From Antedon mediterranea (Eukaryota; Echinodermata; Crinoidea; Comatulida; Antedonidae): a stretch of DNA of 64,000 bases. The position numbers and the translations under genes were made by a program. The stretch lies in NCBI RefSeq assembly GCF_964355755.1, contig NC_092673.1:4779001-4843000 (forward strand). The letters run 5' to 3'. Numbering within the stretch: the stretch's first letter is position 1; every line of letters starts with the position of its first letter. Below are positions 13,818 to 61,407 of the stretch, piece by piece. The notes beneath the pieces are model-generated. The model was not told the origin of the DNA. It made no database searches and saw nothing but the letters and a program-made list of their open reading frames with translations.

Positions 13818-16800
13818 ATGAATTCAGCAGAAGCACAGCCTTCCTCTAAGACGAGGAATGAACGTGTGATGCGAAGGGAACATGTACGCAAGGAAGAAGA
13901 AAGTAAGCTTGTTTAAATCATTGACATAAAAGTTTTGATCAACTTGTTAATTTTAAAGCCCCATTCCCTACGTTTTTTAGATCTAATTTAAGATCACAAA
14001 CTATATTTAATGTAAAAATAATACTATATGGTCCTATTGCGATAACTTTTTTCGTCTTTAAACGGTTAAAAATGTGAAAAATAAATCGATTCTAATAATT
14101 ATAGCGGCCCGCTATAAATCCCAAAATGCATTGCGCGCGGATTGATATTTTTGTTTTTCACCTGTAATTCGCCCACTTTTCGATCGATCGTGAAGCCAAA
14201 ACAAATGGAAGACTCCTAACTTTTCAGCGAAAATACCGGGTTTTCCCCAATTTGTATCAACGGAGTCTGGCAAAAATAGAAAGACAATTAATGCAGCAAC
14301 TATACAACGTCAGGCTAGGTATATAGCTAGCGTACGATGTTCGTACGTTATCGATGTTTACCAGCTAGGCCTACAAAACTAAGCCTAGCTAGGCTAGGCC
14401 TAAGACCGTCCACGAGAGGTCGATCGCCGCGAGCTACTTAGGTAGTGCATTGTTTCTCACTTTTTATCATAATTTACCATAAAACGTACATTTAAGACAA
14501 GGAATGACATGGTTTAATGTTTTTAAAGTGATATATATGTATTATTTTCCAAAAAACGTCCAAAATTGCAGGGAAGGGGTCTTTAAATAAAATTGAAGAA
14601 AAGTTTCAATTACGATAATTTAAGAAAATTCAGGAATTGCCTTAAAAATTACTTCAATATCTAATTACTATAGTATAAGTAAAGGAAAGCCAGAATTACA
14701 AAAATTATTTCATTTTAAGTCATTATTTGGACGCACCTTTATCATCAAAGTATGCCACTGTTGTAAAAGTGAAGTTTCCAATAAATTATTATTATTAAAT
14801 TACAAACATAATTATGCCGTGCTAAATAATAGATAGAATAGAAACAAGTGACGATTTGCTGGCAATATAAAAAAGAAAAATAGCCTATTTTTTTTTAGAC
14901 TAGTTTTATATTTATAATTCTTCCAGGAGAGTTTGAGGGCATGTCTAAAGAAGAGGAAGATCAGATTAAGGTGTGATATTAAATTATATTGTTACTACAA
15001 AATGATATTTGGTATAAATACATGATTATTTAGTATTTAGACAAATTACAATTATTCAAATTTATGTTATATGTTTTTGAATATTCTGTGTCATTAACTT
15101 GTATTTGAATGTACACCTTGATGACTAGTGAAAACAAGTTTTTTTTGGCTATTATTACTTAAACTGTATTGTTTATCATCAGTATTGCTTTACTGTCTTA
15201 AATTTCAGCAAGCCATTGCGCTGAGTATATTAGATAAAAATGGACTGGGCGAGGAGAACGAAGTCTCACCAACGTCCGAGGAGGACAAAGTCTCACAAAC
15301 GTCCCTAGTAAGTAAAATTTGTGTGGCATACTTGAACTAAAGTGCTTAGATGTGATTTGATTATGTTCAATGACTTTTATTTTTTATTTCATAATCTTTT
15401 AATGCATTGTTTTTTTTTTTTGGCATCACATTTGTTGTCTATTAACCGCAAGGTGGATTATTCCACAGTGAACAAATTGTCTACATTTAGTGCTCAATTT
15501 GATCGGGATTGCTTCAATGATGTAAATATTTGCCGTAATTTGATTCAGGGGATTAAAATTATACTTGTAACTATGTTTGGTTAAAAAAGTGTTCACATAA
15601 AGCGTGGTTCCCACTAGCGACGCAACACAAGGACGTAACGCAACGCAAGTGAATTGACCATGGAGCTATAAAATTTATAGCTCCATGAATTGACCAATCA
15701 CAAGCGATGGCTTATTTGCTTGTGATTGCTAACTGTCTATAATTTCGCTTGTCATTGGTTAAAACGCTTGCGTTGCGTTTACGTCCTTGCGTTACGTTCT
15801 AGTGGGAATCACGCTTTAATAGACGTTCTACTATATTTATTTAATTAATGCAGCAGATTAAACACAATTTATAGAGAAATAAAAAGAAAGTTGTTGATAA
15901 GTTATAAAGCTGATTGATAAAAATAATTGATCTATTTAGCCAGTAGACAGAGATCTTAAATTTGCTGTTGTTTAATTCAGGGGGTAGCCCTATTAAATGT
16001 ACATTTTGTTGGGTCCTAAAAGTGTCCCCATAATAAAGGTTATACTATATTTATTTAAGTTTGAAAGCTAATTTGTATAAATCATTGATCTATTTAGCCA
16101 ATAGATGAAGATCACACAGAAAAAAACACCATAAATTCAGGTCAACAATTGTCTGATTCGCAAGTTAGCGATGGATTTGGTGATAACGCAGATGAAGTTG
16201 GAAACGTTGATAAGCACGAGCAAGGTAACATTAAAGAGAAAGACGACAATAAAGATGCGCAAGTTAGCGATGGATTTGGTGATAACGCAGATGAAGTTGG
16301 AAATGTTGATAAGCACAAGCAAGGTAGCATTGAATTGGACGAGAAAGATGACAATAACGACCAATCAAAGGATGACTTTACATTTCCTTATTCGGTTGAA
16401 TCACACAGCTCACCAAAGCAACAAGAGGTTGGTGACAATAAAGGGAATGGTGACAATGTCGAGGATGGGGACAACAATGGACGTTGTGACAATGATAAGG
16501 ATGATGACAACAGTGATAATAGTGACAAAACTGATATGGATTATGAATGTGGTAGAAGTTCTCCACTATTTGAATCTGAACCTGATATTTGTTTGGTATA
16601 TTATCTATTTCTTTCACTTTGTACACAATAATAATAATAAGAATCTAAGTATTTTTTTTTTTTACCATATTTAATGAGCAGCAGTGTCACAAGACAAACA
16701 TATACACAAGATGCTCTACATAAACAAAGTCTTATTACAAGTCTTTGGGAGTGGAGTTGTAAAATCCTGACATATGACAGGACTTGAACCTAGGATTGGT

Positions 16801-19800
16801 AGCCAAGGATCAAAACCACCAAGCCACATCTCCACTCCTAAATGAGATTTAACATAAAGTATACTACTCAGGCATATACCTACACGACCTTCAACAAAAT
16901 ATTATGGAAAACGTGCCTTTTCCTGGTCTTTGGAGCGCCCTTTCCAAACTCAATCAGGAATGCCGAATCGCACCACATTCAAACTACTCATCCAATCCTA
17001 CCTTTTCAATTTGCACTTTCAACATTAATTAATTTTTGTGCTTTTTACATTGATAGTTCAGCGCTTAGAGGGGCCCTGCATTTTGCGCTGTGTAAATCGA
17101 ACATTATTATTATTAACTACTTTCGTATTTTTAAAATCAAAATCATTTTTTTGAAACAATATGATTGAATGACTTTTTTTTGTTAATTTAGGTTGAAGAT
17201 GAAGATATGACCCAGATTTCTCACCAATCGAGTATTCATAGGTAAATTATGTAGATGTTTAAGAATCTTCCAACTTTATTCACATCATACATTAAAAACA
17301 AACAGTACATTATGTGAAAACAGGCCAAAATCAGCTGACTGGCATACTACTACTATAATGCACGGTCTTCAAACAATATTCACTAATGGTTTTTAAACTA
17401 CACACTGCATTGACCCTTTGCACTCTTACAACAATCCTGTCATGGAGTGACAATCAGCATTTTCTACACTCAAATTGTCACTATGCTATTTGAATAATAT
17501 TGATTTATAATGAAAATGTAGTGCACTGCTGTGGTGGGACTATTGTATTTATCTTAAGTTCATATACACTACATTTATGAGAATGCTGTCAAATAAATTA
17601 AAGATAAAAATGATTTTTTTAAAGCGATATTAAATTTCTTTACAGTGAAATGGATATCTTCGCTGTACGGAAGGACAGACTAAGTTTAAAGAAACGTAAA
17701 AGGGAGCCAGTTGACACAGAACAACCCAGGAAAACACCAAAACTTGAAACTAGTGTTCATAATAAAAAGGAGGAGGAATCATCTGAGATTTTTCCATCAT
17801 CAGAACCATACATACCTTTAAAATGTGTGGATAAAAGGTAAAAAAACTATGCATTTTGATGTAGTTTTAATTTTGTTATCTTGTGTCTTCTGCCCCATGG
17901 TTCCATTTCCAGTTAGTTTCACTTAGCTATAAATTCATGCCACTATTTGGATAGCTTTAAATTTATAAGTGGTCAGATGTTTTGGCCTACTCTGACGTAA
18001 TTTTGTACTTTATACTAGGTACATTGAGAAGTAATTCTCAGGTGGGGCTCAAACCCATGACCTCCAGATCACTGGCGTTCATACCTCTAGACCACCAAGC
18101 TTGCGCTGATGGCTAGGGGTTAGATTCGAGCCCGAGTAAGCAGCAGGTACTTTACCAACAGACTATTGCTGGACCTCAGACATAAGCCCATGGGAATATT
18201 ACAGTTTCCTCACTGAGTCTTAGCTGACTTAATTTACCTTTTATTGTTTATTTAAAGAAATCAAGAATATAATATATATTGTAACAGAATTGTTCTTTTT
18301 CTTTTCATATTTTTCTTCAACATCATCAATAGACCAGTAAGTCTGTTATTTTAAATTGTATATTGTTTAAAAAGAAATATAGTTTGTAGGATTTCTATAT
18401 TATAATAGCACTAACCCAAAATTGGTTACTCTATCTTCTAAACTGCATGATACTATTGCCGAACAATTACTTTGCGATGACTGACAATTCGTGGCCAATT
18501 TTGTCTACGTCACAATCAAGTCACATGGTTGGTGGATGGATAATGGCTAGTATTATTCATTCAATCTTTTATTTCGGAATCTCTATGTAATTGCGTATTA
18601 TTTATTTAATTTTGATTAAGTATATATTTCTTTTGTTTATTCAGATTTTAAAGAAATTAAAACCATTATATGCTCCTGACAATGCAAATGCCAACGATTA
18701 CACTTCAATTATTCTTACTATGTTAAACAAACAACTACAAATATTTAGAAGTGCTCAACGTGAACTCTCCAAATTTGCCGCTATGGGGTCACCTGTTCAA
18801 GTCGGCCCATTTATGAGGGGCTGCCTGAAATATCGTAAACGTTCCGAAAAACCGTTTGTCTTTTTTGACAGTAGTGATGATGAACCTGAAGAAATTAATA
18901 AGTCGGGAAAAACTGTAAAATCTCAAAGTGACGCGCTAGGGGAGAATAATCGTAATGTGAATTCTGCTCGGAAACGACGAACGCAAAGCGTAATACACAA
19001 CACGTCCGATTCCGATTTTGAAACCGAGCCAAAGAAACCAAAATTAAGTAAGCAACAAAAAAATCCAGAAAAAAGCGGTCTTGATATTAAGAATGAAGAA
19101 ATTCTTGACGATGATGTTTTATATGCAGGAGAAACGCAACCTTTTTTTGAAGATGACATAAATGAACAACTTGATGATTCACTGTTAAATGACAGTCCAG
19201 TTCAAATTGTGAGTGTGGAGTCTGACCAGGAAACGGATGATGGTCAAGATGCAGATGGACAATCGGGACAACCTTCAGGTCATATAGACTCACAAAATTT
19301 AGACAAATCAACTGAGAATTCTGAAGATAAATCCTCCAATGATTTAAAATTAAAATCTGATAATTTTGTTGATGATGATGCAGTATTGGATGATGTAATT
19401 GAATCAATACTTGAGGATGATAAAGAACCTCATCAAAATGAAAATGAACCCAAAAAACACTTTCAGGATGGTAACGATAGTGACGTGTCATCTGGATCTG
19501 GACCTATTGTGATAAGAGAGAAGCGACCAGACAATTCTCAAGGCTTTTTTGCGCGCAAACGTCGAGCTGATACCGGTGCTTCCACAAGCAGAGGTCTAAG
19601 GTCAAGGCCACGTGAACAATCTCCTGAAATTCCATTAAAAAGTCAACGTAGTGAAAGCCCATCTTCAAAACTAACAAATTTTGATATAGATAAGGTTAGA
19701 AATGAAAAATCTAAAAATACAGTAGAACCACTTCTATTCAGGGGACACTTTCCAGATGTTGTCCCCTTAAGCTTGGTTCCCACTAGCGACGCAACGCAAT

Positions 19801-22800
19801 GACGTAACGCAACGTAAGTAATTTGACCAATCACAAGTGATGGATTATTCGAACAGTGGCTTGTCATTGGTCATCAAGCTTGCTTTGAGTATACGTCCTT
19901 GCGTCGCGTCTCTAGTGGGAACCATGCTTTATTAGGGGCTCTAATCTATCATTACTTTAAACCAATTAATACTTTCCTCTCACATATTATTGATATTTAA
20001 AGCTCTGTCCACACTATCACATTAGTTTGACGACAAAAAAAAGTGTAATGTGCCCAAATACAGTACAGTAGTGATATGACATCATCATGTCCATATATAG
20101 GCACATTTTTTTTCACATTTAAGTTTGATAGTGTAGACAGAGTTTAAGTTTGTATTTATTTTTTCTAGAATGGTATTGCTTGTCCATTGTGCAATGTTCT
20201 CTTTCATCCAGACATGATTTTACGACATGCATCAGAATGTAATGGTCCTGTAGAAGAAGGTAAATAAATAAGACAAATTTAAAATCAACTAAAGCAGAGT
20301 TACTGATAAACATTTTTATTAAATTGATATTTAAAGTGATATTTACAATAATTTTAACTGTATTTGAATTATGATTTTAAATACTTTAGAAACTACAAAT
20401 AAAGAGACTGAGCCTATTGAAATAACAGAAGTGTTAAATTCTGAAGATGATAACTCGACTGGCAGCCAAATGGAGCATGACCATACAGGTGGTTGGGTGT
20501 TCAGGTACGGTAGTTTTAAAGGTAGACACTAACTTATTGTAGCTATGGGTAATAGGTGCAGTAGCTACAGAAACCAAGAATATGGTTTTGTATCATAATG
20601 TATGATCACAAAAAATATATGGTATGCCGGAATTTGATTATTTGTTGACACATGAATTAGGACGATGACTTTCGTTTTGTAAGCTTCATACATATTTTCT
20701 TTGTAGCCTACCACATGTCAAAAAGTCTATATAGTACACTGTTGATTCATCAGTTGCCTCTTTTATTTGTACAAAACAAAAAACCCTGAACAGCTCATAT
20801 ACTTTATTAATTTTGAAACATCTCGCTACGGCCCTGTCATAAATTCTTATTGCCACATGTTTTCTTCAATTGTTACTATCACCACAACACTGATTTTCGA
20901 TTTTCTTTTTAATTCCTTTTACAGTGAAGCAGTAACAACTCCAGTAGCCAAATATGGTAGCAAAAAGAAGACAATATTTAAACCTGCTGAAGAAGGTATG
21001 TAATTGTCCACCTGCTTATTAAATACATAATTGATTCAAATAAACATAATGTTTTAAAATAAATTAAATCATTTTAATATGTTTTTTTATTTCACAGGAG
21101 ATGTATATAGAATCTCTAGTAGTAGTGATGAAGATATATTACCATCAAGAAGGTAAATATTATATTTTGTAATGTTATAGTATGAAGCCTTTTCTACACT
21201 ATCACACTTTGACAAAAAAATGTAATGTGCCCATATATGGACATGATGTCATAACACGGGAATATCACTACCATATTTGGGCACATCACACTTTTTTTTG
21301 TCAAACTAGTTTGATAGTGTAGACAGAGCTTTAGACACGTTTAACTACCATATTTGGGAATATCACTACCATATTTGGGAATATCACTACCATATTTGGG
21401 AATATCACTACCATATTTGGGCACAGTATGAGTAGTTGAATGATGAGAAATACTGTACAGTAGGACAGCCTGATTCTGTCTTCCAATGAATAAAAATATA
21501 CTCCCCATTCAATAAATACAAAAGTGTTATTACAGTGTATCTTTACTAGCACACCTACATTTCCAACGTAAACTTTGTTCAATTAATCCTCTGCTTCCAT
21601 CTTGAATGTCAAAGGTTAGACGAGAGACTAACTAAAAACTGTAGCGCTTGGTTTTTGGTTGTCGAGTAGGACAGTTATTAACCAGCCATGCGTTGCATAA
21701 AATTCTAAAAGATGTTTACAAAAAAACCATAGAACCATTCAATAGAGCGTGGTATGAAATTAACCAATCAAATTGCAAGGATAAACTCAAGTGAAGTTTA
21801 CTATTACAGTCCTATTAACTGGAATGAACAATCACAATTTATGATCAGTTTTTAGAAAAATACCAGCACACCAATGAACTTTACAAGTATGATAGATAAA
21901 ATTTTATGAGAGCAAGACAAATTGTAATATAAACCTTAACTTCAATCAGGTTTTATTGCAAATTTAATTTTTATTGGCATTGAATCATACTCTTGTAAAG
22001 GGGGCACCTTTAGAATCCAATAATCTTAATGTTGAGAACAAACAGAATGATAAACTCAAAGAAATTCTATTAAAGTAACACTTACAATTCATACAACAGC
22101 CGCAATAAAATCAATATTTATATCTTTTTTAAAAACACTTTTGTAGAACATCGCACGACAACATCAGCAGTGGTCCAGACCATATTGATCAAGTTGTGTC
22201 TGATATGGTTGGTAGAAAACAGATGTCAATAAGTGTGCCAAAAGCAACTAAAAGACAAAGAACTAAACAACAATCAAAGAACAGGTAACCAGTAGACATT
22301 CATACTTCAATGTGCCCTAAAAGCTGACCAGATTGTTCAGTAATTTAGGCAAATTACCAAGGATACAAAGTCATTTCATTCGCTGTCCTCAACAGTGGTA
22401 ACCCTTTTCGCAAGATGATCTACACAAAGTCATAAACGTTTTGGAAGTGGAGTTATATTTTAATTAAAGACAATCTTGGCATCTTACAGGATTTAAAACC
22501 AAGACCCTGGGATTGGTAACCAACCATCTTCATTCAACCAACAAACCAACTACAACTCAATTCAGTGTCTAGGATTGCTAAACAACTCTCTAGTTATTCC
22601 TTATGCACCAGGGGACATTGGGTACAGTAAATACACTCAGTGGCATACCGCAGAGGCATGGTTTAGGAACCCTAGGTGGCACTCCAAGGCTTGAGGCAGG
22701 GCTTTTTTACCTTTTTTCGACATATTGTAATGCCTCTTTTTCCTCTGGGCACTGCCCCATAAGCTCCGGAGCCACTGGGTTTAGCCAGTGAGCGCTCATA

Positions 22801-23868
22801 GCTCATAGCAGTTACACCACTGTATACACTGTCTGTGGTACATATTTTTGCGGTAGTGTCTGAATAATCTATTTCTCACCACATAGGGTCAAAGAAGAAG
22901 CCATGGAAACTTGTTTTATGTGCAAGAAGCTTGTACCAAAATCTGAGTACCCTGAACATGTGAACGCAGAACTTGAAAAGCAGAACATGGAAGAAAGCTT
23001 ACACGTTGAAAGTCAGCAACCGTCTACTTCTATAGGTGAAAGGTATTATGTTTACAGTATGACACAGTTCTGTAGATAAGTTAATTAGTTATTGTCATGA
23101 CCATAAACATAGGTGAACATGAATACGCCACACAATGTTATACAGTACATAAAAGTACCACACATACCTACTGTAACTTTAGACACTAAAGCTCTGTCTA
23201 TAAAACTTTATGTGACAAAAAAATGTGATGTGTCCATATATGGACATGATAATGTCATATCACTACCATATTTAGGTATATCACCATATTTGTGTACATC
23301 ACACATTTTTTGTCAAACTAGTTTGATAGTGTAGACAGAGTGCACTAGCACCCTAAGCTAGGGGCTTGTGGTATTATTAAGTGGTGTTTAGGGGCAGGAA
23401 ATTTTTTTTTTTTTCATTTTTTAAAATGACTGATATATTTCTTCATGAAGGGTAAGAAAAACTGCTAAAAGAAATACAAGAAAAAAAGAAAAAATAGAAG
23501 ACGACGAAGAAAAGGAAGAGGGTGATCTTGACGATCTCATCGCGTTCAGTCACAAAAAAACACAGGAGGACGACGGGGATTATGATGTTGAAGATGATGT
23601 TGAAATAGATGAATACAGCGACAACGAGGATACGCCAACGGGTGGAGAATTCGACGTTAGCGATTCTCCGATCAAAGCTTTCCGTAACATAAAAAACATG
23701 CCTTCTGGTTTCATAGACTATAACAATCAGTTTAATAACAAACCAAAGAGGGGAGGGCAGGTTAATGAAAAATCATATTTCCCGACGACATCAAAACCAC
23801 AGTCTAGAGGTCGGAGGAAAAGAGGTGGAAGAGGGAGAGGCGGTGGACGCTTCCGCAAGAAAAAATAA
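13818..23868 (+). CDS. UIMC1: RAP80/UIMC1, BRCA1-A complex ubiquitin-binding subunit
   Basis: Exons: 13818-13902, 14927-14970, 15209-15307, 16098-16595, 17192-17241, 17646-17837, 18333-18336 (microexon), 18645-19694, 20169-20259, 20390-20504, 20925-20995, 21098-21152, 22147-22284, 22887-23042, 23451-23868. The total is 3066 nt, 1021 residues (human about 719). Residues 37-52, EEEDQIKQAIALSILD, form a textbook ubiquitin-interacting motif (Ala45, Ser49). Residues 330-362 (KPLYAPDNANANDYT..., ...AQRELSK) match the conserved RAP80 segment ending PDG-DPNQYT in human. Zinc finger 1 is C679-x2-C682-x11-H694-x3-C698. A second starts C840-x2-C843-x11-H855 but lacks the last ligand. The C-terminus has SDSPIKAF and an Arg/Gly/Lys-rich tail, both as in vertebrate RAP80. 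The family brings Abraxas-BRCC36-BRCA1 to K63-ubiquitin at DNA breaks. Only one clear UIM is seen where human has two. An untranslated first exon is likely upstream of 13804. Confidence 0.9.
13955..14584. mobile_element. 630-bp non-autonomous DNA element, copy 2
   Basis: Same length as 2471-3100, with about five differences, TTAA borders and no coding capacity. It lies in UIMC1 intron 1. Confidence 0.75.
14725..14797 (+). repeat. Retroelement 3'-tail-like fragment, second copy
   Basis: TTGGACGCACCTTTATC, TGCCACTG and CCAATAAATTATTATTATTA match the arrangement at 3213-3292. It again lies just downstream of a 630-bp element, although the intervening bases do not look alike. Confidence 0.4.
15599..15818. 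mobile_element. Fold-back family B with inserted small palindrome
   Basis: A full-length family B element (AAAGCGTGGTTCCCACTAG ... AGTGGGAATCACGCTTT, TA flanks) in UIMC1 intron 3. At about 15659-15687 its left half is interrupted by the palindrome ATGGAGCTATAAAATTTATAGCTCCAT, bordered on both sides by GAATTGACCA, which looks like a small target duplication. Confidence 0.75.
16098..16595 (+). CDS. UIMC1: UIMC1 acidic exon with 33-residue internal duplication
   Basis: This exon encodes a low-complexity Asp/Asn/Glu-rich segment (residues 77-242). A 99-bp unit beginning CAAGTTAGCGATGG at 16161 repeats at 16260, giving the peptide QVSDGFGDNADEVGNVDKH twice. The start at 16098 (after TATTTAG) is preferred over the acceptor at 16140, because only 16098 keeps phase 0 with the previous exon. 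Confidence 0.8.
16675..16845 (-). mobile_element. tRNA-derived SINE
   Basis: On the minus strand the head reads GGAGATGTGGCTTGGTGG (A-box-like TGGCTTGGTGG) followed by the B box GGTTCAAGTCC. The body (ACAACTCCACTCCCAAAGAC, AGCATCTTGTGTATATG) is shared with 28469-28640, and a decayed copy is at 22400-22530. It lies in UIMC1 intron 4. Confidence 0.65.
17057..17115 (+). repeat. Retroelement tail with GCGCTGTGTAAAT and (ATT)n
   Basis: AGCGCTTAGAGGGGCCCTG ... GCGCTGTGTAAATCGAAC runs into an ATT microsatellite, a form common at 3' ends of invertebrate SINE/LINE copies. It is short and truncated. Confidence 0.35.
18005..18215 (-). mobile_element. tRNA-derived SINE, second type
   Basis: The minus strand reads GGTGGTCTAGAGGTATGAAC, then a B-box-like GGGTTTGAGCCCC, a tRNA-like head unrelated to the SINE at 16675. 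The adjacent plus-strand GGTTAGATTCGAGCCCGAGT may be a second decayed tRNA-like unit. It lies in UIMC1 intron 6, just upstream of the predicted microexon. Confidence 0.45.
18333..18336 (+). CDS. UIMC1: UIMC1 4-nt microexon (predicted)
   Basis: ACCA lies between a long pyrimidine tract ending CATCAATAG and the consensus donor GTAAGT. The exon before ends in phase 2 (..AG at 17837) and the exon after must be read in phase 0 (ATT TTA AAG at 18645). Joining them directly gives AGA TTT TAA, a stop. Including ACCA gives AGA CCA ATT and keeps the conserved frame. It is inferred from phase and splice signals only. Confidence 0.6.
19769..19931. mobile_element. Fold-back family B copy
   Basis: AAGCTTGGTTCCCACTAGCG ... 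CTAGTGGGAACCATGCTTT. It lies in UIMC1 intron 8, just after the exon that ends at 19694, so a continuous reading frame runs from the exon into the element. A scrap of another repeat (AGTAGAACC ... GGGGACAC, about 19721-19768) lies between them. Confidence 0.7.
20000..20146. mobile_element. Fold-back family A copy
   Basis: AGCTCTGTCCACACTATCA ... TTGATAGTGTAGACAGAGT, about 147 bp. It ends only 23 bp before the zinc-finger exon at 20169, so its right arm nearly touches the splice acceptor region of UIMC1. Confidence 0.75.
21184..21332. mobile_element. Fold-back family A copy followed by 21-bp tandem array
   Basis: The element carries the usual ends. Directly after it, 21343-21424 repeats ACCATATTTGGGAATATCACT about four times; this unit derives from the element's own internal motif. 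It lies in UIMC1 intron 12. Confidence 0.75.
22640..22767. mobile_element. Possible small CAGTGGC-ended element
   Basis: CAGTGGCATACC at the left and GGAGCCACTG at the right form short terminal inverted repeats of the CAGTGGC type seen in hAT-like and other DNA elements. No clear target duplication and no coding capacity. It lies in UIMC1 intron 13. Confidence 0.3.
23190..23342. mobile_element. Fold-back family A copy
   Basis: AAAGCTCTGTCTATAAAACTT ... CTAGTTTGATAGTGTAGACAGAG. It lies in UIMC1 intron 14, about 110 bp before the last exon. Confidence 0.75.
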
Positions 23869-26800
23869 ATGATGCTTTTTATATGGTACTGTTTTTCCTT
23901 ACTGTATCACATGAAACAGTGAAAAGGTTTACATAGAAAAGTCTGCCTGTGGAATCTGAACATGCCTTTTTTTGCTTTTAGGATTTTTTTTATTGAAACC
24001 CTACTAGGAAATGGTATAAATACACATTACTTTTAAAAATATAAAAAATTTAGATGCAATCAATTAGTTTACATTGCAGTATTATGTTGATTATGATAAT
24101 GTGTTAAAACATGTATGATGGTGCTATCCCCTACATGATATGATTGTCATGGTCTGTTATTGTCCATGGGTGCTTGACCGACTTTTCTTATCTCCATTTA
24201 TGTTATCTCTGATAAATTGGACAAAAAATACATAAAGTAATATGTAAAACAGAAGATCAGGATGATGATTAAGCAAAATAACGATGATTAAAAACGCAGA
24301 GAACATTTTAAATTTTAATTGGGTCTATACGATCGAATTGATTATGTCATCTTAGGAAAAATTAAAAGGAAAAATTTCTAAATTCATATAAACTAGTTTT
24401 TAAAATTGTGTTAAAAAGTCTTTGTTAAGCTCTTGTCTACACTATCGAACTTTATGTGACAACAAATGTTTGTGCCCATATATAGACATGATGATGTCAT
24501 CACTACCATATTTGGGCACATCACTACCATATTTGGGCACATCACTACCATATTTGGGCATATCACTACCATTGGGACCATCACAAACTAGTTTGATAGT
24601 GTAGACAGACCTTTAAACTTGTTCAATTATTAAAATGTTTATAAATTACAAATAAATTTATATTGTAACAAAAGACGAAAGGATGTTTTAGTATGCGTAT
24701 TTTGAAGACGTCGAATTGATATACCGTAATACAGTACCTTCAATTTTTTATTAACCTGTTGTCAGTACGGGTCGCCCTCTCGATGTCGTATTGAATATTG
24801 TGACGTCACACATTAATAGTATTTCGTATTTCAAGAGTTAGCCGGTCAAACGCATCGATGCAGTATGCAAGTTACGCCTGCCATGATCACTTGAATATAC
24901 GCGACCTTAATCATACCTATTGATAATATGAATGGGCTTTCACATTTACCGTCTTTGATTTGGAAATCTGGTAAGTAGACATCTGTGTACTGAACTAATT
25001 TTAATTAAATATAGCTCGACCAATTCGATCACTTTATAGACGCGCGCGTGTAATGTGTATGCCTATACTTTATTGATATAATTAAATCGTAGACTTATTT
25101 AATAATAAAAGTTTTAATTCTAGTCAAAATAAAGCCAATCGCTGTGATCACAATCATCGTAATAATAATATACTTATTTATAAGTTATCCGAGGAGTATA
25201 AATTTACCGGGTTTCCATTTTAGATAAATCTCCTACATAGACCGTCCACTAAAAGTTCTGAATAATATCAATAATGTGCTAATTGTTTGTATTACTGTAT
25301 AGAGACTTTTACCCGAACATACCAGGATTGAAATTTGCTGTCAGCCTCGCCTTTTCCGCCTCATTTCAGCACGCTTTAGTTAAGCTTATGATGTAATACC
25401 AGCCAGTAAAAGTAAATTGTGTTCGATAAATGATCAATAACTAATATTATACGAATATGATTTATCAAGTACATCTTATATATCGCCTGGGACGGGACGA
25501 CGCTAGATAAAACATTATGTATACAACAATTTGGAAGTTTGGAAACGAGGCCTTGTTAAACATGGCCTATATACACTCTTTTAAATTAAGAAGAGTTTAT
25601 AGGCCTACTCTAATTTTCAGACATTTTCTAATTAATTTCGACTATTAAATTTCTATCCAATTAATCAAATTGGAAAAAAAATAATTGGTGAGAATGTCTG
25701 TGCTCTTACTACTACTGTACCTTGTTGGCAATTAAGCTACGTTTATTTAGGACATGTAATTATACGATTTGCCTTTTTATATTGCGTGGAATTGGAGTGG
25801 GGAGAGTGGGGGTGTTTGTGGTTAGATTAATAGTAGTGAACGGACTATATTTCATAATGAACTACAGGAAATACTATTTGTGATTGAGTAGGCCCTAATG
25901 ACGGTCTTATATAACGTATACTGAGTTAATATGTTATACATCCCAAGGCAAATTACTGAAAAAAATGACAATGATGTGGGTATCAGTGGCTGGATGTCAA
26001 TGGTGATACAAAATAAAATAAGCACTGACAAAATGACAATGCTGTGGGTATCAGTGGCTGGATGTCAGTGGAGATACAAATAAAATAAGCAAAAAGCAAA
26101 ATCAACACGATAACAGCCAGAAAAAAATAGCTTTCGGGTTAGACTAGCTCTTCATCAGTGCGAAATCAAATAAAAACAAAACAGCGAGAAATAATAGCAC
26201 AGCTTTCGGGCAACACTACATGTCAGCGCAATATACAATATACAATATCATCTATATAAAACTATGCAAACGTTGAATATTTACTATTTGCACGTTTTAA
26301 TATCGTCAAGAGAGACTGTACAAAAATAGAATATTAGAAAGTGCGTATTTGCTCGCTATTCACAAACGTATGTGTGTATATAAACCTGAGACACGTCACT
26401 AATGGGTAGAAGTATTTGCATTTACTGTTAAAGCATCAGAACAAACCAAATTGGACACAAACTACCTATTACAGTTCTATTTTGACATTTCGAGAAACAC
26501 TATTTTATTACGTGGTGAATTAGGCCTAATGTTCTGCAAAAGACATCACGGTAATGAAGCGAAATAAAGTCATATTTATAGCAAAGTAGTGACGATGGGT
26601 AAAAAGCAATATATTGAGAATCGTGTTGATTTAAGATATCGTAAACATACATCATCACAATATAATATTAGTGAATGACGGCAAGAATAATATGATTATT
26701 AGGTAACCAGACAGTGCTCATCAACATTGTAGGCCTATGTCTGCGAGAGTCGTGTTATATAGGTAGAGATGGTCTCAATTTGCATCATCAACATTTAAAG

Positions 26801-39489: not shown

Positions 39490-40270
39490 TGTTAATATGT
39501 GTCCCTACCACGTCATTTGTTTTGTTGTACATGTGTCCCTACCACGTCATTTGTTTTGCTATTGTGCCTGTGTCCTCATCACGTCATTTGTTTTGTTGTT
39601 GTACCTGTGTCCCTACCACGTCATTTGTTTTGTTGTACCTGTATCCCTATCACGTTATTTGGTTTGTTGTGCCTGTGTCCCTACCACGTCATTTGTTTTG
39701 TTGTACATGTGTCCCTATCACGTCATTTGTTTTGCTGTACCTGTGTCCCTACCACGTCATTTGGTTTGTTGTACCTGTGTCCCTATCACGTCATTTGTTT
39801 TTTTGTTGTCCCCGTGTCCCTACCACGTCATTTGTTTTGTTGTACCTGTGTCCCTATCACGTCATTTGGTTTGTTGTGCCTGTGTCCCTACCACGTCATT
39901 TGTTTTGTTGTACCTGTGTCCATATCACGTCATTTGTTTTGCTGTACCTGTGTCCCTACCACGTCATTTGGTTTGTTGTACCTGTGTCCTCATCACGTCA
40001 TTTGTTTTGTTGTTGTCCCTGTGTCACTACCACGTCATTTGGTTTGTTGTACCTGTGTCCTCATCATCACGTCATTTGTTTTGTTGTTGTCCCTGTGTCC
40101 CTACCACGTCATTTGTTTTGCTGTTGTGCCTGTGTCCCTACCACGTCATTTGTTTTGTTGTACCTGTGTCCCTACCACGTCATTTGTTTTGCTGTTGTGC
40201 CTGTGTCCCTATCACGTCATTTGTTTTGTTGTACCTGTGTCCTCATCACTGTATTTGTTTTGTGTCCTCA
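39490..40270 (+). repeat. 34-bp minisatellite, about 22 units
   Basis: The unit CCCTACCACGTCATTTGTTT + TGTTGTACCTGTGT repeats about 22 times, with 34-37 bp variants (extra TGT, CTCATCACG versions). The unit length is not a multiple of three and has no stop in any forward frame, so all three forward frames stay open across the array and each gives the same Cys/Val/Pro-rich cycle (CPYHVICFVV...). I regard the frames as a by-product. Confidence 0.9.
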
Positions 40271-56400: not shown

Positions 56401-59400
56401 ACCATACCGGCATGGTAATGGTATATTCCCGCAATATTCCTGGCACACAACTCTGTGAGAAAGGGGCTTAATAGTAACCCATGGGGTTAATATTATAGTC
56501 ACAAAAACTATTGACAAAATTACATTATGAATTGAAGACTGGTCGTTTATGATGCAGCCGTATTTTGAAAATAAGGAGATAATGCATGTTGATCTCGGGA
56601 GTGGGGGAGGATTGAGTGTTTTTGAGTTTATAAAATAAAGTTAGAGTTCAAACAAATTTGTTTATTCGTACTGGTTTATTATTTTGCTATGATTTGCTGA
56701 CTGATTAGTAATAGTAACCCACTACTCTAATAGTAATCCCCCTTCTAATAGTTACCCACCCTTAAAAAACAATCAAAGAATAATAGCCCAGGGTTACAAT
56801 TAGAAGATTTACGGAATAGGCCTACTTTATGCATGCTGACTGCCGTGACCTAAACAATAGGTACGCGTTAGTCTGGCGGTGTCCTTTGTACGAATCGTTC
56901 GTGCACCAGCTCACTGTATGAGTACGATACACACGTCAATATCATGTTACATCCAGGGATTTCAAGGTTCAGAGCTGCGGCGTTTGCTTTCGTATTGTAC
57001 GCGGCGTACAACTCCATAGGTCTGAACCAGGATCGGCAATTCATTTTGCAACTCTTGGAAATTTACAGACACGTATCGCTCGACGTACGCTCATACAGCG
57101 AAGAATGTATCGAGTTATTCAAGAACGAGTTTACAAATTTTTCAATTTACGAATAACATTTTGTACTGTGTGGAGCACGTATTTGGAGGATTTTCAGAGA
57201 TGAGGGTGAGGGGATGGGGGTTCGCAGTCGGTTAAGGGGGTTCGCTGTAAAGGGGGGTTTGCCCGAACCATAAACCCCCCCTGGCTACGGGCCTGCTAAT
57301 TTCTCTGTATGTACCACATAACTAGTTCTTACTGTATATTGCAAATATAAATCTATAATTTCTAGTATGAAAGCCAAGCCCTAATTATTCAACCTCAACA
57401 TTTCTTACTGTTCTTTATTCTTGTCTTTTTCTTATATCCATGGCCATTGGTTGCCCGCTCTTCACTTTCCTGTAACCATTTCTCTTCAAGATCACAAGAG
57501 AATACCACTTTCTTGGGCATCTTGTGTTCCTCAATATTTGGTACAAAAACATCATCTTCATATGGAAATATCTATATAAAATATAATGAGTATTTTTGAA
57601 AGTGGATGGTTAAAATGGATATATATATTAGACTGCACAAAAGTGAATGCAACTTTTTTCTTCTTTTTTAGTAGCAAGCTTTTTTTTCAGAACAGAAGGC
57701 AGAAATTTACTAAATCTGCATATTAACTGTTCTGTTAATATTGGGATTGTATTTTTGTATTTGGTTTAACTTCCAAAAATGAAAGCTGGTTAATAATAAC
57801 ATAGGTATTTCAACATTGTAATTTGTATTCAAATTGACTGTTTGTCTTTACAAAGATGATGTAGAATTTAAAAGTAAAAAAAGATAAATTAACAGTACCT
57901 GTTGATCATAGTCTGAATTGACAGTTGGATCATATTCACCTCCACTGCTAAACCCATAATTTGTATCAGGATCGATATCTCCACCACCAGTCTGAAACCA
58001 CATTGCATGCCTCGGGCATGGCTGGCCAATGTCAACAACGTTAGCATTACCACCAACATTGGTTCCTTTACCACACAGACAAGGTAAATCTGTCTGGTCA
58101 TCTTTATGAAGATCGAACACTTCACTCATGTACTCTGCACCTGTCAAGTATGGAGGAGTTCTTGTTTGAAAGTTTGTTGGAAATGATGCAGAGATGATAT
58201 CTGGTTCTCTTGTTTGTTCTGTATAGTAAGAACTGCCTTTAGGATAAATAGTTCTTGGTTGATTACCGTCAGATAGGTATCCTGCTTCTGAAATATCCCA
58301 CTTGCCTATCTTTTCTAGATATCTTTTGGTGCAGTCCATCGATAGTTGATGTTTAGTTGTGTTGGACATAACAGGTTTCGATGTAGAGTACTCTATTCCA
58401 TCAAACGATGGTAACAGTGCATTGCCTTTGTCGCTGTTGAAATTCTCATCTCTGGCCACGGGCGAGTCTTCGGAAGAAAAACTCTCTCTGATTGGTCTGA
58501 AATGTGTTTTCGGTGAGATTAGCAGATCTTCAAACTCTCTGCGACTTTTTTCGTGAGGGCTCATAGCGTTTCTGTGTCTTTCAAAACTACTGCCAAAACC
58601 AATTGGCTGACTCTTTAAGTTTCTGATAGGTTCAGGCTTTGTAATAGCTGGTTTGATGGTTGTTAGACTGCCACATAAGCTTTCAGAATCACTGGCACTT
58701 TCAGTTGTTTTTGGTGTTGTTGAAGGACACCATGGGATGAAATCATACTCAGCCTCTGATGCCTCTTTCATCTCTTGCTCAAACGATACCGGTTCATTAA
58801 CCTTTGACTTGATATTACAAGCCGTTTTCAAACTTTGAGTAAGTTCCAAAATATTCTCAGTCTCTTTCATAACCTCATCAAATAGTTCTTGATGAGTGTC
58901 CCCAGGATGCAATTCAGAGTTATCATCCTCTTCAACATGTCCTCCAGATCGTGCAAAGTCAAACCGTGACGAGTTCCTCCTCGAAGTAACGAACACTGGG
59001 CTGTCAATACCAGCATCTTCACTGCAGAAGGCTCCTCCGGTATCACTGTTATAATCAAGAGCAGAGTTCCTTCGTGATGACGAAATAGAACTAACACTGC
59101 TTGATTTTCTTTGCACTTGAGATATATGCTGTCGTCGTGTGATAACAGCATGATGCAGAAGTTTAGAATCTAACTGTGCTTCTTCGTTAAAAGGAGTATC
59201 CCAAAGATCACGCAAACTGTCATCGTATGGACTCTCTGTCCTGCTACTACAAACACTATTCAATTGACTATTATTATGGCTAGAATAAGGGCTACCATAC
59301 ACACCACCTTCAATAAACTTAGTTTTTCTCATTAGTTTACTCAGTCCAACCCCATGGTGACCACAATCCCAGGTCACAATTTTCGGTGGTTGAACACAAG

Positions 59401-61407
59401 ACTCCTGCATATCATAAGTAGACCACATGGCATTGTTCACATCTCGACCCGATTGCTGAACGGGCTGATATCCACAGTTTAATCCGGCTGTTGGTTGGTA
59501 GGCATCCTGTGTTGGATGGGTAACAAATGCCACTCCATTTTCATCTTCAGATGAGTAGTGCATGAAGTTAGTAGTGTAGTCAGCTCGCGACCAATGCTGC
59601 TGTTGATGTGTAGTGTTGCATCCTACTAGTGCCATTGACATTTTCACATGTTCGTGATCATGCTTATGATCACAGATTTGAAGTAGGCTATCTGATAACG
59701 AATCCGACGCAAAAGACCTGTTTGACCTTGCGTCATCTTCGATATTTTCATTAGCTCCAGTAAAAATGGTCAGAGATGTCACAGTTTTTTCATCTCCTAC
59801 TGTTGCCATCTCACTGCAGCTTTCCGTATTCCATGGATTAGTGGTAACCTTTGGTTCGTCCGACTTCCATATGTCTGCTAAATGAGACCTGGAACCAAGC
59901 AGCTCTTTCATCTGTGAGCTGTCTTCATCTCCATCATTCTCACCCTCATTTTCAATATTTCTGTCAGGCAATTTAAATCCCAAACTATCACCCATCACAA
60001 AACTCAATGGCCTCGGAGTATCACCGAAACCTTTCGATCCAATTCTTGGTAATGTATTGCACTTAAAATTTCTTGCACTGCTATTTCTTAAACCATCTCC
60101 AAAACCTTCCAAACCAGTAAAATCTTCTCGCTTCCTATCTATAGGGAGGTCTTCTAAGACAGCCATCTCATCAATAATTTCCTTACATAGACTTTCTGTA
60201 ATAGAGCTGACAGCATCCTCTAATGTACTGTCATCCGTGGTCTCACCCATGACTGGACTGGTTCCCTCGGAGCGATAGACTGTTTCAAATTTACTTTTCT
60301 CAGATGTTGTACTAAAGACATCCATAACAGGGTCCACATACCAGCTAACATCTTCAGCATCGGATTCATAAGGAGTTTCTCCTTCCTGTTTCAACAATTC
60401 CACTTTCGTTTTATCTTTCCTTTCTTTTACAGGTAAATTTTTTTTGTTTGCTTTTAATTCTTTTCCATTATTTCGTGGCTTCTTCCTATGTTTGACGGTG
60501 TTTTTCTGTAAATCATGTTTATAATTACAATTGTCGCTATCTTGGATAGAGACGTTTGGCAAGCTCTTCGGCCGTCGCTGAAGATTAGACTCAACCGGCG
60601 AATTGCTGTGACGTGATACTGAAGCTGATTTACTTTTCGTTTCCTCTTTTTTCGATAGCTTTTCAGCAAATGTTGGTGATTTTTTCTTGTTATTTTTCTT
60701 GTAAAAACTTTCATTCCAATCTGTGTCTGTGTGTAGAGAAGGGAATGCTTCGAAGTACCTGTAAAGAACGTGCCAAAAAGATGAAAATTAGCAGTTATTT
60801 GATTTGATTTATTTTGATACTATGCCATATATGTTGATCTTGTGATAAAAAAAATCTTGAATAAGAACAATAAACTCAGACTGTAACCTTACTTTTTTGA
60901 AAAGGTGTAGGATGTAGCTTTTGAGTTGGCCCTTCCCACAATTTTAACAAAATGAGAAAGACTAAAAGTCAATTAGGTCTACCATCAAATATTCCATCTA
61001 CATTTTTAGAAGGATTTAGATTGATATGTCATAGGTATGAGTATTCTAGACGTTGATTTCAGTTCTGATGATGAGAATAGTATTCGTCACAGTATTTTAA
61101 TTAAGTTTTCCTGTTCATTAAATGCATTACAATTTTGATTTTAACTGTTTATTGATGGTATCATACATGATAGATGATAATGTAGATATAATAAACCAGG
61201 TACTGTATGTATAATATGAACTTAATATCTTTCAAACTACTATAGCACTTACTTCATTGCTTTATTTTCATCCTTTGAATTGCTTTTTTTGTTTTCTTTT
61301 TTGACTTGTTTTTTTTTCCCGTTTCCATTTTCTCGCTTGCTTTGTTCATCTTGAAGTTTCTGTAGTTTCTGACACAACTCCTCTACCAAACCCTCAATAC
61401 CACATTC
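53426..61407 (-). CDS. KIAA0232: KIAA0232-like protein with C-terminal tandem CCCH zinc finger (5' end missing)
   Basis: Exons in transcript order: 61407-61253, 60758-57899, 57571-57409, 54597-54441, 54209-54098, 53641-53426. Phases agree and the frame ends in TAA at 53426, giving 1220 residues in this window; earlier exons are missing. Landmarks shared with vertebrate KIAA0232 are: GIEGLVEELCQKL; KYFEAFPSL; SWYVDPV...SEKSKFETVYR; EGGVYG; ISPKTHFRPI; and an acidic GGEYDPT stretch near the vertebrate C-terminus. Unlike the vertebrate protein as I recall it, the chain goes on for about 230 residues. These include two CCCH fingers (CX7CX4CX3H in CSFYLEGKCRKGDCRFSH and CX7CX5CX3H in CRFWEESTCYKAESCPFLH) and a basic Ser-rich tail ending NIKAKPR. 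Function is unknown; the fingers suggest RNA binding. The 2.86-kb exon is Ser/Asp-rich and probably disordered. Confidence 0.85.
53912..54051. mobile_element. Fold-back family A copy
   Basis: CTAAAGCTCTGTCTACACTATC ... TTTGATAGTGAAGACAGAGCTTTAC with TA flanks, in the last intron of the KIAA0232-like gene. A scrap of the AGTGGAACC/GGGGCAGCC repeat precedes it (53742-53870). Confidence 0.8.
54441..54597 (-). CDS. KIAA0232: Tandem CCCH zinc-finger exon of KIAA0232-like gene
   Basis: One exon encodes both fingers, each of the CX7CX4-5CX3H type, spaced by about six residues (DLSTTT). All eight ligands are present. It joins 57409 (phase 1, AAC A|) to 54209 (phase 2, GCC AG|C) without a frame break, which supports it as part of the same transcript rather than a separate gene. 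Confidence 0.8.
55545..56770. repeat. Interrupted (T)CTAATAGTAACCCAC array
   Basis: Units of about 15-20 bp (CTAATAGTAACCC, variants with AATCC) occur at 55548-55636, resume at 56469-56482 and again at 56708-56770, all within the 2.34-kb transposon. The nested element splits the array. Confidence 0.65.
55638..56468. mobile_element. ~830-bp nested element with AGCCCCTTTCTCACAGA ends
   Basis: AGCCCCTTTCTCACAGATGTGCC at the left mirrors GGCACACAACTCTGTGAGAAAGGGGCT at the right. Both sides read TAA, a 3-bp target duplication typical of PIF/Harbinger. Removing the element and one TAA restores CTACTCTAATAGTAACCC, a unit of the surrounding array (compare 56704-56722). The interior is rich in CCGG/GGTATA palindromic motifs such as TATACCGGTATA-like stretches; no transposase. 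Confidence 0.8.

Follow-up and report, generated by a model that had tools for sequence, protein, structure and literature searches.

A candidate 4-nucleotide exon that would keep the reading frame of a crinoid UIMC1/RAP80 gene

How a reading frame is carried across an intron whose flanking exons do not fit each other is the question raised by a gene of the crinoid Antedon mediterranea, located in a 64,000-nucleotide stretch of NC_092673.1 (positions 4,779,001 to 4,843,000; this whole stretch is the window below, its first letter is position 1, and the features of the gene are all on the + strand). Exon 6 ends in phase 2 at 17837 and exon 8 opens in phase 0 at 18645. Without an intervening piece the reading is ...VDKR-F-stop after 324 residues, the stop codon being 18649-18651. 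These phases and the quick stop on direct joining had been pointed out in a preliminary description of the same DNA and all hold in the letters. That description went on to propose that the frame is kept by a microexon of four nucleotides, ACCA, at 18333-18336.

That the gene is the animal UIMC1/RAP80 orthologue, as already suggested, is borne out by two parts of the predicted protein, exon 8 and the C-terminal half, both of which match solved RAP80 chains. Exon 8 (18645..19694) matches chain 9sqy_I over the Abraxas-interacting region (E 4.3e-4), with further matches to the solved chains 9smn_E (E 0.0015) and 6gvw_E (E 0.0081); 9smn_E had also been reached at E 0.0031 with an earlier, chimeric query. 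The match of the C-terminal half to 9sqy_I (E 5.6e-6) takes in the first zinc finger in one stretch and the second finger with the tail in another, and the C-terminal zinc finger CxxC...HxxxC with the tail of UIMC1/RAP80 is present in that match. Tandem UIMs close to the N terminus are a feature of UIMC1/RAP80. Pfam gives a single UIM match here (E 0.043, 14.1 bits), below its cut-off of 21. When the second finger (22887-23042, CFMCKKLVPKSEYPEHVNAE) is aligned, the final Cys found in the solved chain (HVDSC) is seemingly absent. For the SUMO-interacting motif of UIMC1/RAP80 a candidate, ICLVEDED, lies by eye across the exon 4/5 junction.

On rebuilding the model with ACCA included, the previously reported sum of 3066 nt over 15 exons, divisible by three, was reproduced, with a 1021-residue protein and a single stop at its end. 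Exon 1 as modelled is 13818..13902, with its ATG at 13818; a UIM-like motif begins in exon 2 (14927..14970) and is completed in exon 3 (15209..15307); exon 4 (16098..16595) encodes an acidic linker; exons 5 (17192..17241, ending in phase 2) and 6 (17646..17837, 192 nt, phase 2 to phase 2, with the basic stretch KKRKREP) follow; and exons 9-15, introns included, occupy 20169..23868 and encode the zinc finger(s) and the C-terminal tail. The frame of exon 1 is, by eye, open upstream as far as the AG before 13804, and an additional coding exon upstream of exon 1 is possible. Within exon 4, at 16155-16320, QVSDGFGDNADEVGNVDKH is nearly duplicated in frame, with another long open frame overlapping there. 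The exon 8 frame is open beyond its donor (19695-19802) and runs into a repeat, so that an extension of exon 8 there would be repeat-derived; similar sequence is seen by eye at 15600-15820 (TTCCCACTAGCGACGCAAC). Searches of the genome for a second copy or retrocopy, with exon 6 DNA and with exon 8 protein, each gave only the self match, single matches being no proof of absence of further copies in an assembly that may hold masked stretches. A search for relatives as possible contaminants in bacterial and archaeal contigs gave 92 pattern matches, none of them confirmed.

The need for an additional piece between exons 6 and 8 can be considered separately from its identity. Coding scores, for which the training set was this gene plus a second open reading frame of the window, both hydrophilic and probably disordered, are +92.8 bits in frame for exon 4, +7.1 for exon 5, +99.1 for exon 8 and +20.3 for exon 6, the last set against -12.5 and +2.8 in its other two frames. 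Two other arrangements were discarded. Exon 6 as a separate terminal exon was rejected because neither AATAAA nor ATTAAA, the only two signals sought, is present between 17762 and 18655. A direct exon 6-exon 8 join was rejected because its best in-frame donor, at 17664, has 0.8 bits, and each of the model's 14 donors, ACCA's included, scores higher (3.1 to 10.4 bits). Given the coding scores of exons 5, 6 and 8, the missing poly(A) signals and the weak direct-join donor, the best reading is a single gene in which one more piece, 1 mod 3 in length, should be spliced in, and from the sequence the need for such a piece is well supported. To this extent the earlier proposal stands; that the piece is ACCA alone is more likely than not but unproven, as longer frame-keeping exons have the same donor.

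ACCA itself is as had been described. The letters at 18331-18342 are AG, ACCA and GTAAGT; a pyrimidine-rich tract (18289..18327, with 31 pyrimidines in 39 positions) lies upstream; and four nucleotides, being 1 mod 3, are the right length of filler, completing an Arg codon and encoding Pro. An AG before and a GT after a very short segment, as a microexon (internal, 30 nt or shorter) has, are thus present. The donor is ordinary (6.8 bits) and is preceded by CCA, not AG. The two flanking introns would be 495 and 308 nt. Within the tract there is a branch-like TTCAT, whose A at 18307 is 26 nt upstream of 18333, and no other AG occurs between 18288 and 18330. The branch-like motif is weak evidence, since several of the other exons lack a usable one: among the 13 others, exons 5, 6 and 14 have no yTnAy in range, and at exons 8 and 9 the only such sites have an intervening AG. 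SRRM3/4-type neural microexons have UGC between tract and AG, and TGC is absent from 18289-18332. The ACCA site with its upstream tract, allowing up to three mismatches, has one match in the genome, the gene itself.

A scan of the intron for pieces of 1 mod 3 with open frame and non-negative splice scores yields seven options: 79 nt (18258-18336), 49 nt (18288-18336), 13 nt (18029-18041), 4 nt (18333-18336) and three weaker ones. The donor after 18336 is common to the 79-, 49- and 4-nt options and the 13-nt option lies in a repeat, for which reason an end at 18336 is firmer than a start at 18333. That some exon ends at 18336 is, in our judgement, quite probable; that the filler is the 4-nt ACCA exon is somewhat favoured, though unproven, these gradings being judged and not computed. 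In a ranking of whole paths that contain no internal exon or a single one no longer than 300 nt, the 13-nt exon in the repeat has 49.7 bits and ACCA 48.6, a gap of 1.1 bits, and with an assumed exon-length prior ACCA is third, after two in-repeat exons and before the 49-nt and 79-nt forms. GC donors, admitted with a fixed 7-bit penalty, are absent from both lists of the 12 best paths.

How good the ACCA acceptor appears depends on the model used to score it. With a fixed 20-nt matrix (splice matrices here combine textbook frequencies, given a weight of 15, with 13 of the gene's own introns) it has 2.3 bits, the weakest of the gene's 14 acceptors, the others having 3.7 to 13.5; 24% of background AGs equal or exceed it, as compared with 0.03% to 15% for the 13 other acceptors. 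The background is 14 arbitrarily placed stretches, among which there may be real exons, and in its segments of intron length 4-nt candidates as good as ACCA by the fixed matrix are found in 23 of 336, rising to 113 of 336 for exons of 1-25 nt and 176 of 336 for 1-298 nt. The alternative model combines a core from -4 to +1 with the best pyrimidine tract within 45 nt upstream and, having been written after the tract had been seen, is post hoc; with it the ACCA acceptor scores 16.2, which places it first among the intron's 41 AGs and also among the 14 acceptors of the gene. That value is attained by 15 of 13,666 background AGs, and equally good exons occur in none of the 336 segments at 4 nt, in none at 1-25 nt and in one at up to 298 nt. 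For the 13 other acceptors it is the fixed matrix that gives the better separation from background (geometric mean 0.017 versus 0.047 for the movable tract). The AG before 17913, in the same intron, is second of the 41 with a movable-tract score of 14.1, exon 8's own site having 11.4. Nothing suggests that the 17913 site is used, and its high score means that a strong tract is not sufficient for an exon.

The reading that survives best beside the 4-nt exon, though unlikely, is a 79-nt exon, 18258-18336, that starts from an ordinary acceptor and shares its donor with ACCA, which would be just its last four bases. Exons of 4 nt are very rare and long exons far commoner, and a length of 79 nt is ordinary. 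Such an exon is open and 1 mod 3, and its acceptor, at 5.2 bits, is within the range of the gene's others, with a pyrimidine tract followed by aaAG and with branch-like CTGAC, TTAAT, TTTAC and TTTAT 15 to 31 nt upstream with no AG between. Its synonymous codon use is normal (+2.2 bits, as is that of the 49-nt form at +2.4), and hence the coding argument against the long forms rests on amino-acid make-up. On that side, the 79-nt exon would add RNQEYNIYCNRIVLFLFIFFFNIIN before the place of the final RP, with a hydrophobicity far above that of the rest of the protein (peak 14-residue hydropathy 2.63, the maximum elsewhere being 1.17), and the extra 75 nt have 20.0% G+C when the lowest other exon has 30.9%. 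Its 27 codons score -12.1 bits, a level that none of 994 windows of the gene (windows that overlap one another) reaches, while 23% of 892 open windows from the gene's other introns reach or undercut it. That 25 codons are open is unsurprising, as 4,209 of 19,838 background windows are stop-free. The exon would also contain the gene's strongest pyrimidine tract, 22.3 against 4.9 to 18.8 for the 13 other acceptors, and would carry an AG shortly before its own donor. The preliminary description had named usage of a longer frame-keeping exon as what would tell against the microexon; 49-nt and 79-nt candidates of this kind exist in the sequence.

A more elaborate reading, which we regard as a long shot, makes history of the same facts. 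The acceptors at 18258, 18288 and 18333 are all in phase and open, and the 4-nt exon might be what is left of a once longer exon, its acceptor having shifted downstream to a stronger pyrimidine tract; the animal may still use more than one of the three acceptors, and the choice between inclusion and skipping could then set the level of full-length RAP80, acting on this subunit of BRCA1-A as a decay switch coupled to splicing.

Equally improbable is that exon 4 and exon 8, both phase 0 at the junction, are joined directly, with exons 5-6 belonging to a separate truncated isoform. Skipping exons 5 and 6 and the microexon keeps frame and leaves 939 residues, and no donor of the gene is weaker than that of exon 4 (3.1 bits). 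However, exons 5 and 6 score as coding, as given above, and for the end of a truncated isoform 17762-18655 offers neither of the two poly(A) signals sought.

Recruitment of a short exon from the repeat within the intron, as 18029-18041 (13 nt) or 18019-18041 (23 nt, which goes with a weaker exon 6 donor at 17824), is very doubtful despite the best path score without a length prior and the first two places with one. The donor, CAG then GTGGGG, is strong at 9.2 bits, but the acceptor of the 13-nt form has 0.0 bits, a level reached by 45% of background AGs. The repeat itself (17970..18162) is SINE-like and probably tRNA-derived, a label given by eye. It is 89% and 87% identical to two aligned copies, and has at least 49 other copies, whose identity is 72-93% and for most of them lies at 78-88% across almost the full stretch, as judged from 40 scored of 832 first-look candidates, which gave 50 rows with the self match. 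Because of its location in a many-copy repeat, the 13-nt exon is not expected to be the original frame keeper; it would not explain how the frame was kept before the insertion.

Less probable again is the 49-nt exon, 18288-18336. It is open and 1 mod 3, with an acceptor of 5.1 bits, but the pyrimidine score of that acceptor is 2 when the 13 others have at least 4.9, it has no branch-like site without an intervening AG (the same holds for 5 of the 13 others), and its coding score of -9.5 bits is reached by just 0.1% of 1,004 windows of the gene, themselves overlapping. A misassembly or a local indel allele, within exon 6 or where exon 8 begins, could also produce the frame gap. Short A and T runs at both edges are in favor of this, but it is hardly credible for a chromosome-scale assembly (18 contigs, 354 Mb) in which the other 14 exons read through with no in-frame stop.

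Repeats and open frames are also found elsewhere in the window. A 34-bp / 207-bp tandem array at 39497-40263, with about 22 copies of the 34-bp unit, has all three + strand frames open. Tandem repeats of 21 bp (ACTACCATATTTGGG...) at 21344-21421 and 24498-24572 are hosted by what appear by eye to be mobile-element-like sequences with inverted ends, similar ones being present near 20000 and 23200. On the - strand a 979-codon open frame (57848-60787) has no Pfam match at E 0.01.

Very short exons as a general kind are known already, and the ACCA candidate can be set beside several. In plants, the RECQ3 microexon cluster is of size 4 and phase 2, and a 4-nt microexon in rice LOC_Os02g54020 is confirmed by RT-PCR, the annotation that omits it giving a truncated protein (PMC8831610). 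Both are of ACCA's length, but they are plant exons with RNA-seq support, whereas ACCA is an animal candidate read from genomic DNA. The 4-nt exon of Arabidopsis At2g39780, overlooked by EST aligners and described as having no part in alternative splicing, is likewise from a plant and EST-supported (PMC550657). In animals, 3-nt exons are reported for mouse Ncam and Drosophila TnT, and exons of 3-7 nt were 19 of the 104 microexons added by ce-TopHat in Drosophila (PMC8042270). These are at or near ACCA's size; those of Ncam and TnT, at 3 nt, cause no frame shift, whereas the 4 nt of ACCA would be needed for frame. Micro-exons of human brain, there defined as 51 nt or shorter, tend toward multiples of three; splice sites are reported to be stronger in the constitutive ones, which are also richer in T 5-20 nt upstream, whereas in the alternative ones T is scarcer close to the acceptor and more frequent farther than 20 nt upstream of it (PMC4317164). 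With regard to constitutive-type sites, ACCA has an ordinary donor and an acceptor that is lowest by the fixed matrix and highest by the movable-tract model. By eye its upstream layout resembles that of the alternative class (PMC4317164), which hints, weakly, at variable inclusion. Literature searches for microexon together with UIMC1 and for RAP80 in invertebrates found nothing, and among the papers listed for microexons in echinoderms none, judged by title, is about RAP80.

On the favored 4-nt reading, ACCA would be an ordinary exon, included constitutively in the mRNA by the spliceosome. The 18289-18327 tract would serve U2AF and the branch machinery, with the branch A perhaps at 18307, and the first AG downstream would be used, with U1 engaging GTAAGT afterwards. 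As both sets of factors could not occupy a 4-nt exon together, the 495-nt and 308-nt introns would be removed one after another. Inclusion would add Arg-Pro and restore the frame of the Abraxas-binding region and zinc finger. Skipping is predicted to give the 324-residue protein, ending before both, and nonsense-mediated decay is expected of the skipped mRNA, its stop being far ahead of later junctions. The on/off switch for the C-terminal half of RAP80 that was part of the original proposal would be only a consequence of frame.

If the 4-nt exon is real, automatic annotation is likely to break at this point, giving either a truncated RAP80 or two genes, in line with what has been described for microexons of plants (PMC8831610). 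As a required, not an optional, 4-nt exon in an animal, it would further test how splicing proceeds when an exon has no room for the factors of both its splice sites.
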